Shown in pieces: positions 52 through 16,823 of a DNA stretch of 64,000 bases (positions are counted from its first letter, which is position 1; each line of letters starts with the position of its first letter). The stretch is taken from assembly GCA_029781035.1 (NCBI GenBank), contig JAKOXK010000096.1, forward strand, positions 1 to 64,000, written 5' to 3'. Under the pieces are notes generated by a model. That model was given only the letters and a program-made list of their open reading frames with translations. It was not told where the DNA came from and searched no databases. Both the position numbers and the translations under genes were made by a program. This stretch comes from Armatimonadota bacterium (GTDB taxonomy: Bacteria; Armatimonadota; Fimbriimonadia; Fimbriimonadales; Fimbriimonadaceae).

Positions 52-1710
52 ATGGAGCCCCAGGACAGGAGTCTCGATCTCTTGGCTCGGATCATGGCAC
101 AGGCACCTGCCGACGACGCCAAGCTGCACACTTATCTAGCCGCCCTCAAAAACGAGCTTGAAGCCCAGGCTCTGACGAGCGAGGAGCGCCAGCGAGCGAT
201 CGCCGCTTATGAAGAGGCCTACGAGAAGCTGACGTCACCAGCCAACCGGCTGGGCGTCTTCCTGCGGCACCTCGAAGACGGACACGCGCTCGTGGCCCTG
301 GGCGACTCGGAATACGTTTCGCAGATCGACCCAAAGTTGACCATCGAATTGCAGACCGGCGTGCGCGTCCGTTTGAACGAAGCCTACGCCATCGTCGGAA
401 CGTTGCCCCAAGGTGCGATCGGATCCGTCGTGAAGGTGAGCGAGGCTCTGGATGACGGCCGTCTCCGCATTGGTTCGGACGCCCAAAACCAGCAAGGTCG
501 CCTCGTGGAACGGTCGGCAGAGATCTCGGAGCAGATCGTTAAGGCCGGCGACGAAGTGCGACTGGATCCTTCAGGAAGGATCGCGATCGAGCACTTTGGA
601 CGCCAGGAAGCCCGCGACTATTTCGTGGAAGACGTGCCAGAGACGCCTTGGGAAAAGGTGGGCGGCCAGGAAGAGGCGCTCCAGGTGATCCGCGAGACCA
701 TCGAGCACCCTCTGCTCTATCCAGACCTCTATGCCCGTTATGACAAGAGGCCCGTCAAAGGAGTCCTCCTGTACGGCCCCCCAGGCTGTGGCAAGACGCT
801 GATCGGCAAGGCCGTCGCGTGGAACCTGGCCCGTGAGTACTCGGAGCGGACGGGACATGAAGTCAAGGAGTGCTTCCTCCACATCAGCGGCCCCAAGATC
901 CTGAACATGTGGCTTGGCGAGACCGAGCGCATGGTGCGAGACATTTTCGCCACAGCCCGAGACCGCGCGAAGGAGGACCGCCTTGTCGTGATCTTCATCG
1001 ACGAGGCCGAGTCCATCTTGCGGACCCGATCCAGCGGACGATGGCTGAACATCAGCAACACGGTCGTCCCGCAGTTCTGTGCTGAGATGGACGGCATGGT
1101 CGAACTGGAGAACGTCGTCCTCATCCTCACCTCGAACCGTCCCGATTACATCGATCCGGCGATTTTGCGGCCCGAACGCATCGATCGCAAAGTCAAGATC
1201 AAGCGGCCTGACAAGGAGGCTTCTCGGGAGATTCTCTCGATCTACTTGCACGAGAGGCTCCCGCTCGAGCCTGCACTTGTGAAAGAGCATGTCGAACCTG
1301 AATGTGCACGTGTCGCTCTTGTTGAATCCACGCTGGCGCACCTTTGGCGAACGAACAAGGAGACCGAGTTCATGAAGGTTCAGATGCGCAACGGCACTTC
1401 GGAGACCCTTTACTGGAGAGACCTGGTCAGTGGGGCGCTGCTCAAGTCGATCGTGGACAGGGCCAAGGACGCTGCCATCCGACGAGCGATCGCGGACAGC
1501 CTATCGCAACACGAGGACAAATCGGGCCTCTCAGAACAAGACCTTCACGACGCGATCGTCGCTGAATATCGTGAAAACGAGATCTTCCCGAAAAGTGATG
1601 CGGTCGAAGACTGGCTCAAACTGCTTGACTTTGAACCCGAGGCGGTTGTGAACGTCAAGCCGATCCGACCCGACAAGGGCGAAGCTCTTGTTCGGAAGAC
1701 GATCGTTTGA
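52..1710 (+). CDS. arc: Proteasome-associated AAA+ ATPase (ARC/Mpa family)
   Basis: Ring-forming ATPase that unfolds tagged proteins and feeds them to the 20S proteasome in the cytoplasm. The 552-residue protein has the family's order of parts: an N-terminal helical, coiled-coil-like segment (about 22-60), an OB-type region (about 65-200) and a AAA module. Visible motifs are Walker A GPPGCGKT (242-249), Walker B IFIDEAE with D317/E318, a sensor-1 like TSNRPD (about 360-365), and arginines in RPERIDRK. The coiled coil is what binds Pup in actinobacterial Mpa. The protein ends in KTIV, so the C-terminal QYL docking motif of Mpa is absent. Its partners dop, UBact and prcB are 13 kb downstream on the other strand. 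The stop codon overlaps the ATG of the next gene (TGATG), which suggests translational coupling. Family assignment is firm; function with UBact is inferred. Confidence 0.93.
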   Translation: MEPQDRSLDLLARIMAQAPADDAKLHTYLAALKNELEAQALTSEERQRAIAAYEEAYEKLTSPANRLGVFLRHLEDGHALVALGDSEYVSQIDPKLTIELQTGVRVRLNEAYAIVGTLPQGAIGSVVKVSEALDDGRLRIGSDAQNQQGRLVERSAEISEQIVKAGDEVRLDPSGRIAIEHFGRQEARDYFVEDVPETPWEKVGGQEEALQVIRETIEHPLLYPDLYARYDKRPVKGVLLYGPPGCGKTLIGKAVAWNLAREYSERTGHEVKECFLHISGPKILNMWLGETERMVRDIFATARDRAKEDRLVVIFIDEAESILRTRSSGRWLNISNTVVPQFCAEMDGMVELENVVLILTSNRPDYIDPAILRPERIDRKVKIKRPDKEASREILSIYLHERLPLEPALVKEHVEPECARVALVESTLAHLWRTNKETEFMKVQMRNGTSETLYWRDLVSGALLKSIVDRAKDAAIRRAIADSLSQHEDKSGLSEQDLHDAIVAEYRENEIFPKSDAVEDWLKLLDFEPEAVVNVKPIRPDKGEALVRKTIV

Positions 1711-14422: not shown

Positions 14423-15157
14423 TTATGCAAGGACTTTCTGGACGGTGTCCTTCAGCTTCTTTTCGCTCAGCTCTTCAACCCCGCCCTTGGTCAGAACAAA
14501 GACTGAAGGCAAGATCTTCCTGAATCCACCGGTAGCTGAATCCATGTCGGCCGCGATGTCCAGCATCATCAATCCGTCCTGAAGCACTTCATCCAGGGAG
14601 CGCGTCGCCCAGGGCCCCTTCGAACGGATGAGATACTCGAACACGCCACGAATGCGCTCAGAGCCCGATCCGGCACATGCGTAGTCCGCACTTTGGAAAC
14701 GGGCACCGGCAGCGTCGAAGAAGTAAACGCCGAACCGGTCTGTTTTGTGGTCGTATGCGGCGGCAATCGGTAGGAACAAGCCCACGCCGTCGGCGACAGC
14801 GGGCAAGTTTCCTTGCAGTGCCTTTGAGATCTCCATGAGTTTGCCCTCGGAGGAGATCTCGACAAGGTTGAGCCTCTCGTAGTACTTGAACGCGTGCCGA
14901 AGGTAACGACTGATCTCCAGTGACCGGGCATAGGCGCCGCTGACGGCCACGACCGTCGCATCATCAAGCGGCAGGATCTTCTCGGCATGCTCGTACATGA
15001 TGAGGTTGCCCATGGTCGCGCGCCGGTCGGCGAGCAGTATCACGCCTTTGTCAAACCGAAGGGCAAGGACGGTCGTGCCATGGGTCTCCGACGGGGCGAC
15101 CGACGGTGCTTGGAAGCCAACGACCTCGGCGAACGTCTTGGCGCTGGGCGGTTTCAT
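14423..15157 (-). CDS. prcB: 20S proteasome beta subunit
   Basis: Catalytic N-terminal-threonine hydrolase subunit of the bacterial 20S proteasome. A propeptide of 27 residues ends in HG just before T28 (TTVLALRF), which becomes Thr1 after self-cleavage. Relative to that, D44 (LADRRAT) is the conserved Asp17 and K60 (EHAEKILPL) the conserved Lys33, so the active site is intact. The rest shows the alpha-beta-beta-alpha fold motifs, such as ACAGSGSERIRGVFEY. The ATG overlaps the UBact stop (ATGA), so the two are translationally coupled. No alpha subunit gene is in the window. Confidence 0.94.
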   Translation of the reverse strand: MKPPSAKTFAEVVGFQAPSVAPSETHGTTVLALRFDKGVILLADRRATMGNLIMYEHAEKILPLDDATVVAVSGAYARSLEISRYLRHAFKYYERLNLVEISSEGKLMEISKALQGNLPAVADGVGLFLPIAAAYDHKTDRFGVYFFDAAGARFQSADYACAGSGSERIRGVFEYLIRSKGPWATRSLDEVLQDGLMMLDIAADMDSATGGFRKILPSVFVLTKGGVEELSEKKLKDTVQKVLA

Positions 15158-15339
15158 TCTCCCGACCGCTGGCGGTACTTTTTCGCCTGATCCGGATCCA
15201 CCTTCTTCATCCGCCGCAACAACTCATTGGGAGCTTTGGGACGGCCAATATCGGGCTTTGATGGCCCGTCGTCGTCTGCGTGCTTTCGCTCGGGTTCTGA
15301 CCCTTCGCGACGGAGCACTCGGTCTGCGTTCATGATCAT
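15154..15339 (-). CDS. ubact: UBact, ubiquitin-like protein modifier (Pup analogue)
   Basis: 61-residue disordered, charged protein that is expected to be ligated through its C-terminal Glu to lysines of target proteins. The C-terminal stretch PNELLRRMKKVDPDQAKK followed by YRQRSGE is the UBact signature described in Nitrospirae, Armatimonadetes and related phyla. It ends in Glu, not Gln, so no deamidation would be needed before ligation. The start ATG at 15339 overlaps the dop stop (ATGA), and its own stop overlaps the prcB ATG. A longer frame to 15384 would run deep into dop and is less likely; ATG 15333 is also possible. Confidence 0.9.
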   Translation of the reverse strand: MIMNADRVLRREGSEPERKHADDDGPSKPDIGRPKAPNELLRRMKKVDPDQAKKYRQRSGE

Positions 15340-16823
15340 GATAGTTCCTCGATTTGGCGCAGGAAATCGTCGAGCGTGCGACAATCCTCCAACACTCTAG
15401 GATATACAACGTCCGGTGGCAGGACCAAGGTTTTTCGGTCCCCCTCGCGGTCGAACGTCAGGCAACCCCAACTGACTCCGACCAGCTGGCCAGCAAACTG
15501 CCTGACAGCGACCGACCTCGCGAAAGCCCGGGTCGATTCTCCCGGTGTCGATGCGCGAGAGGTCACGTCCTGCTCTGGCAGCCGCTCTTCGACCATCTCC
15601 AGCTCGCACAGAGCATCGAAGAGACTCTCTTCGGGGTCGAGGTCGTGATAGGCCAAGTCGTACGATTTGAGCGAGGGATCCCCCCAGTCAGCTGAACCGT
15701 CCGCGACAAACTGATCCAGCATGCGCAGCTTCGCCGCCCAATCGACTCTTGTGGCTAATGTTTCACCTCCTCGGTCAAGATCCTCAAAGAGATCGACCGA
15801 CTCGCGACCCCGATCGAGAGCTTCGCAGACTTCTTTGTCCGAGGAATCGAGATACCTGTCCGCCGCCTCAACGTACGACTCAACGATCTGCCGCGAGGTT
15901 GTCCAGTTGCCGTCTTCGAGTTCGATTCGCCCTGATCCGGTCAGGTCTCGGCTGACTGACGAGAAGGATCGGACCGCACTGGCGAGGCTCCACGCCGGCG
16001 CCCTCTCCTCTTCAGCGAGCCAAAGTGCGAGTTTGATCAAGGCGAACTTCCGCTCGTTGCACGAGCTAATCCGGTTCGAATCGCCGCAGATCACATGGAG
16101 CCTCATCCACTCGTTCGGATCGGCATGCGGTTCGTCGCGCGTGTTGAAGACGGGGCGACGGTACAGGGTGTCGACACTCGACGTCTCGGTGAAGAAGTCG
16201 GCCCTCTGGGAGATTTGAAAGTCACAATGGGTTCCGGCCTCGGCTCCGACCTTGCCGGCGCCACAGACGACCTGGCGAGCGACCAAGAGCGGCACGACCG
16301 CCCGGAAGACCCGTTCGTAGCCCAGCCGTCTCGGTACCAAATAGCTTTCGTGAGTACCGAAGCTTGCTCCGTGACCATCCGAGTTGTTCTTATAGACACA
16401 AACTCGCTTACCCGTCGCTGCCTGCAAAGCTCGTGCCGCGCGCAGCACGACCCGTTCTCCAACGGCGTCGTTCAGGGCCAGTTCCCGCAACGAGAGGCAC
16501 TCGGGGGTCGAGTATTCGGGGTGACCGTGGTCGTTGTAGAAGCGCGCCCCATTGGCCAGGACTCGATCTGAACGCACTTCATTGTCCGGGCCCCTCTTGC
16601 TGCCGACGTCGAACCGAGCGTCTTCGGGGTCGATTGTGAGCCGATCGACTTGAAAGCCCCGGAGATCGGCCCTTGGTGACTCAAACCGATAGTCCCAACC
16701 GACGAAGCGCCCGTCCGGGGTACCCCGGACGAGCGCCATCGAGTCGTCCACTTGATCCTCGGCCCCACGCCCTTCGACGAGCAGGCCATATTCGGTTTCC
16801 AGGCCGATCAGAACCGGCCACAT
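15336..16823 (-). CDS. dop: Dop/PafA-family depupylase/deamidase (Dop type)
   Basis: Member of the carboxylate-amine ligase-like family that attaches or removes Pup-type tags. The 495-residue protein opens with IGLETEYG (E9 and E11 are metal/nucleotide ligands). It continues with WDYRFESPRADLRGF, GARFYNDHGHPEYSTPE, YKNNSDGHGASFGTHESYL, QISQRADFF and NTRDEPHAD, in the order and wording of actinobacterial Dop more than PafA. Its role here is probably removing UBact from substrates, since UBact already ends in Glu. It starts three bases after the upstream lipoprotein gene and overlaps UBact by 4 bases. A PafA-like ligase activity cannot be excluded without alignment. Confidence 0.9.
   Translation of the reverse strand: MWPVLIGLETEYGLLVEGRGAEDQVDDSMALVRGTPDGRFVGWDYRFESPRADLRGFQVDRLTIDPEDARFDVGSKRGPDNEVRSDRVLANGARFYNDHGHPEYSTPECLSLRELALNDAVGERVVLRAARALQAATGKRVCVYKNNSDGHGASFGTHESYLVPRRLGYERVFRAVVPLLVARQVVCGAGKVGAEAGTHCDFQISQRADFFTETSSVDTLYRRPVFNTRDEPHADPNEWMRLHVICGDSNRISSCNERKFALIKLALWLAEEERAPAWSLASAVRSFSSVSRDLTGSGRIELEDGNWTTSRQIVESYVEAADRYLDSSDKEVCEALDRGRESVDLFEDLDRGGETLATRVDWAAKLRMLDQFVADGSADWGDPSLKSYDLAYHDLDPEESLFDALCELEMVEERLPEQDVTSRASTPGESTRAFARSVAVRQFAGQLVGVSWGCLTFDREGDRKTLVLPPDVVYPRVLEDCRTLDDFLRQIEELS

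Follow-up and report, generated by a model that had tools for sequence, protein, structure and literature searches.

Gram-negative bacteria reportedly possess a conjugation-proteasome system built around the tag UBact, which Lehmann and colleagues are said to have described in 2017. To our knowledge, hardly any bench work exists on UBact systems. The homologous actinobacterial system uses the tag Pup, and corynebacteria are an example of bacteria whose Pup ends in Glu. In mycobacteria the genes lie in the order dop-pup-prcB-prcA, with pafA downstream, and all Pups end in Gln (PMC3511204).

Here we analyse a system of this kind in a Fimbriimonadaceae bacterium of the phylum Armatimonadota. The window, the whole stretch of 64,000 nucleotides that was analysed, holds dop, UBact, prcB and a proteasomal ATPase gene. 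All six components (Dop, UBact, PrcB, PrcA, PafA and the ATPase) are present in the one assembly, and we conclude with high confidence that the UBact-proteasome system of this bacterium is complete, its genes being scattered over at least three loci with no parts lost.

The system shares with its Gram-negative namesake a UBact tag (PF20513, NF033388), homologues of Dop and PafA, two 20S subunits and an ATPase. It differs in gene layout: at least three loci replace the single cluster, and this holds for the whole family. Dop, PafA, PrcA, PrcB and the ATPase are homologous to the parts of the actinobacterial Pup-proteasome system (the ATPase to Mpa), and Glu and Gln tag ends exist in both. The tag, however, is UBact (…RSG, then Glu or Gln) and not Pup (…GG, then Glu or Gln); PafA has an extra Ala and NPKW; the ATPase lacks GQYL; and prcA and pafA are unlinked. 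Corynebacterial pupylation without a proteasome offers a further comparison, since there too the ATPase lacks a C-terminal proteasome motif (PMC3511204), but here the genome has both prcA and prcB, and each keeps its key residues. The system is a further member of the known UBact-proteasome type, with two peculiarities: free switching between Gln and Glu at the end of the tag, and the tail of its ATPase.

The dop-UBact-prcB locus

Three genes on the minus strand make up the locus: dop (15336..16823), a predicted UBact deconjugase and deamidase of 495 amino acids; UBact (15154..15339), 61 amino acids; and prcB (14423..15157), a proteasome beta subunit of 244 amino acids. All three match Pfam families far above the cut-offs (PF03136, 436.6 bits, E 1.5e-130 for dop; PF20513, 77.4 bits against a cut-off of 27.8, E 6.8e-22 for UBact; PF00227, E 1.2e-22 for prcB). 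Coordinates and translations bear out the original prediction that two ATGA overlaps link the genes: the dop TGA (15338-15336) overlaps the UBact ATG (15339-15337), and the UBact TGA (15156-15154) overlaps the prcB ATG (15157-15155). Of 68 Fimbriimonadaceae members, 58 have the UBact-prcB overlap, versus 1 of 27 genomes outside the family, and 43 have the dop-UBact overlap, so this coupling is no quirk of one genome. Wider spacing also occurs: dop and UBact stand about 1.9 kb apart in G014 and G041 (loci L157 and L156), and UBact and prcB about 0.6 kb apart in G048 (L163).

The tag, MIMNADRV...KKYRQRSGE, also matches NF033388 (75.4 bits, cut-off 35). Only UBact models recognise it; none of the Pup family models of Pfam or NCBIfam match, and its end, Ser-Gly-Glu, lacks the Gly-Gly that precedes the last residue of Pup. 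In a scan of genome contigs aimed at UBact in other phyla, the best 80 records were all of the Armatimonadota type. PrcB has a 27-residue propeptide and a catalytic Thr28 that aligns with Thr1 of mature bacterial beta subunits, and it keeps D17, K33 and the DxDSATGG motif.

Is the protein at 15336-16823 a Dop or a PafA? By its sequence it is Dop, as originally assigned. It scores 363 bits with the Dop model TIGR03688 (below that model's actinobacterial cut-off of 492) versus 272 bits with the PafA model, and 272 bits to Dop versus 190 to PafA among solved sequences. The Dop-loop is kept, including its Trp, as are E9, E11, Y96, D98, H99, E103, H158 and H243. Residue mapping finds every Mg-binding and catalytic residue listed for the Dop of A. 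cellulolyticus (PMC8599861). Among 94 homologues Y96, D98, H99 and E103 are invariant, and in 17 of them Asp replaces the first Mg ligand, E9 (window 16797-16799; E8 in A. cellulolyticus); across these 94 the variation shows no link with the Glu or Gln end of the tag. Model scores, solved-sequence scores, residue marks and the tree, in which the protein does not cluster with PafA, together rule out a PafA assignment.

PafA, PrcA and the break-up of the cluster

The original prediction had the ligase and the alpha subunit missing locally. Indeed, the window holds neither a second PF03136 gene nor a second PF00227 proteasome subunit gene. Both parts, however, turned up in a search of the same assembly (3.42 Mb in 98 contigs, 96% complete), unlinked to the locus: the second of exactly two PF03136 genes is on contig C86 (C86:11097-12455) and the second of two PF00227 genes on contig C64 (C64:124648-125088). 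The ATPase gene (52..1710, plus strand) lies 12.7 kb from prcB, on the other strand as predicted.

The C64 gene encodes a divergent alpha subunit, PrcA. Its 87.6 bits with TIGR03691 (E 8.1e-25) fall short of the curated cut-off of 139, but it keeps the docking-pocket lysine in an alignment to 1q5q and is orthologous to PrcAs encoded directly after prcB in other genomes.

The C86 protein is the predicted UBact ligase, PafA. Profile models do not decide the matter, the PafA model (TIGR03686, equivalog cut-off 551) giving 270.3 bits and the Dop model 270.4; residue marks and orthology do. It lacks the Dop-loop, has VGS after the catalytic Asp and the Ala-Thr mark, and carries Asp456 where Dop has Ser (Ser450/452); these discriminating residues are those of Hecht et al. 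(PMC7947786). Its orthologues, at 520-595 bits, include PafAs encoded within the UBact operons of families other than its own, with which it forms one clade at 100% support, on a long branch to known PafA. Its equal scores raised a further candidate, a single-copy Dop/PafA-like protein of the Planctomycetes kind, which we rejected in view of the orthology to PafAs from contiguous UBact operons. The Armatimonadota PafAs have in common one additional Ala behind the catalytic Asp, and most have NPKW for NTRDEP, so that they form a distinct ligase branch. In several of them (L115, L089, L101 and others) IINPKW goes with an insert of about 30 residues before the QLSQRAD motif; at the same site actinobacterial PafA and all Dops have NTRDEP without the insert.

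The neighbour of pafA on contig C86 is the divergently oriented gene of the heat-shock repressor, hrcA (L002:317-2916), and an inverted repeat, GAGTGC-CAAA-GCACTC, lies upstream of hrcA at about 1374-1391 of L002. Control of pafA by HrcA was considered and rejected: no CIRCE element was found, and eight relatives do not share the pairing.

Two readings would still leave the bacterium without a working set of parts. One holds that the C86 protein is a stand-alone PF03136 paralogue and that the genome has no true ligase. The undecided model scores, the long branch, the replacement of NTRDEP and the added Ala all lend it something; we nevertheless consider it highly improbable, given the PafA residue marks, the absence of a Dop-loop, orthologues that immediately follow prcA where other families have an unbroken UBact operon, and the finding that nearly all genomes with UBact have exactly one Dop-type and one C86-type PF03136 gene. 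The other would make the contigs with PrcA and PafA contamination of the assembly, the species itself lacking both. An assembly in this many pieces and a PrcA so divergent would allow it, yet the nearest relatives of both proteins belong to the same genus (PrcA is 69% identical to its closest relative there, in G003; PafA scores 838 bits in G001), the listed contamination is 0.64%, and the two genes are unlinked to the locus in single-contig genomes as well. We give this second reading next to no credence.

The set of parts is conserved throughout the phylum. We compared 121 genomes of Fimbriimonadaceae and other Armatimonadota, which include UBact in 102, PF03136 in 112, PrcA in 98 and the ATPase in 106. 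At all 68 Fimbriimonadaceae loci examined dop, UBact and prcB stand in that order, and at none of the 68 does prcA or pafA stand beside them. In single-contig genomes (G010, G013, G020, G061) prcA and pafA lie hundreds of kb from the locus; the nearest prcA seen is about 18 kb away (G012). Genomes outside the family have the genes in the order (ATPase-)dop-UBact-prcB-prcA(-pafA), and seven more distant genomes (G102, G103, G107, G111, G115, G117, G120) have a cluster of ATPase, dop, UBact, prcB, prcA and pafA. Intermediate layouts occur in other families: G078 has dop-UBact-prcB-prcA with pafA apart, and G080 has prcB-prcA apart from dop-UBact. Judged by these contiguous and intermediate layouts, the break-up of the operon has reached a late stage in the window. 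The local absence of pafA and prcA is thus no special property but part of a family-wide rearrangement; most probably prcA, pafA and the ATPase gene were scattered when an ancestral cluster, ATPase-dop-UBact-prcB-prcA-pafA, broke up in this lineage.

Glu or Gln at the end of the tag

All 101 UBact homologues, counted one per genome, end in YRQRSG followed by Glu (41) or Gln (60). In the window's genus one tag ends in Glu and those of three congeners in Gln; mycobacterial Pups, in contrast, are uniformly Gln-ended. The tags of G045 and G064 are identical but for the last residue, while the last 189 bases of their genes differ at 14. Genome G112 has two tandem UBact genes before prcB (L102:8103-8457), one normal (…YRQRSGQ) and the other divergent (…ARRYEQRSGQ), its N-terminus being rich in Pro.

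The Glu/Gln state needs 22 changes on a tree built from Dop and PrcB of 94 genomes; this tree is drawn from genes of the system itself, with many poorly supported forks, although the close sister pairs are independent of it. Within Fimbriimonadaceae there are 16 changes, equal to the expectation for shuffled labels (mean 15.3), so the state keeps no phylogenetic memory in the family. None of 48 two-state columns in Dop and PrcB is as labile. In 22 independent Glu/Gln pairs no Dop or PrcB site tracks the last residue beyond chance (729 tests, lowest P 0.03).

It had been proposed that the Glu end makes the tag ready for ligation without deamidation and leaves Dop with removal as its role. Chemically the first part stands, and a review infers likewise for Pup that ends in Glu, where Dop's main role would be depupylation (PMC12288473). 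Yet the residue flips between congeners, and also between sisters that are almost identical, while Dop and PrcB show no change to match, so Glu marks no different Dop and no different system. That Dop would keep only its removal role is a textbook expectation rather than a sign of special design, and the final Glu of the window's tag is real but ordinary.

In a stronger form of the proposal, the Glu-ended tag would define a reduced variant whose Dop no longer deamidates and serves for removal only. The chemistry just described, and the role inferred for Dop beside Glu-ended Pup, speak in its favour. But the end flips without memory in a family where congeners end in Gln, the flips are tracked by no site in Dop or PrcB, the catalytic residues do not differ, and a lineage whose tag flipped only recently has had scant time for the loss of deamidation, which works by the same chemistry as removal. 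We regard such a loss as unlikely. Instead, the encoded Glu/Gln state is probably close to neutral, since Dop presumably handles both ends, and a Glu end would merely skip one step.

The ATPase tail and the proposed working of the system

The 552-residue ATPase encoded at 52-1710 is of the Mpa/ARC type. It is the genome's only PF16450 match (45.1 bits), aligns with solved Mpa (5kwa) at 319 bits over 446 residues, and has the OB and AAA domains of Mpa. Its tail (window 1660-1710) ends in RKTIV and has no GQYL or HbYX docking motif. The mycobacterial GQYL end is needed to open the proteasome (PMC12288473), and actinobacterial ATPases from genomes without proteasome genes lack the docking motif (PMC3511204). 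With the motif known to open the proteasome absent, coupling of this ATPase to the 20S particle stays putative. In about 35 relatives from many families (L188-L216, L096-L104) the last two residues of the ATPase are almost always aliphatic (VI, IV, II or VV) and stand behind a variable linker, and none has an aromatic penultimate residue, although proteasome genes are present. The likeliest role of the aliphatic end would be that of a variant docking tail.

We infer each catalytic step of the system from these genes and their conserved residues. The ring-shaped ATPase would recognise the UBact tag, unfold the target and feed it into a 20S chamber built of PrcA (from C64) and PrcB. Dop would split the bond between UBact and lysine, rescuing the target and recycling the tag. 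The tag is made with Glu here and would need no prior deamidation by Dop; in close relatives with a Gln-ended tag the same kind of Dop would have to deamidate first.

We tentatively go one step further, with a combined proposal that we hold to be somewhat less than evenly likely: that the Glu/Gln end is a nearly free switch, so that deamidation by Dop is not regulatory in this phylum, and that the ATPase uses its Val/Ile tail and free carboxylate to dock on the 20S particle and open it, without the Tyr of HbYX/GQYL. The literature we searched holds no description of either free Glu/Gln switching or an aliphatic docking tail. The 22 independent Gln/Glu pairs, with the same tag and the same enzymes, offer a natural experiment on the purpose of the deamidation step, and the aliphatic ATPase tail calls into question the generality of a Tyr-containing docking motif in bacterial proteasomes.
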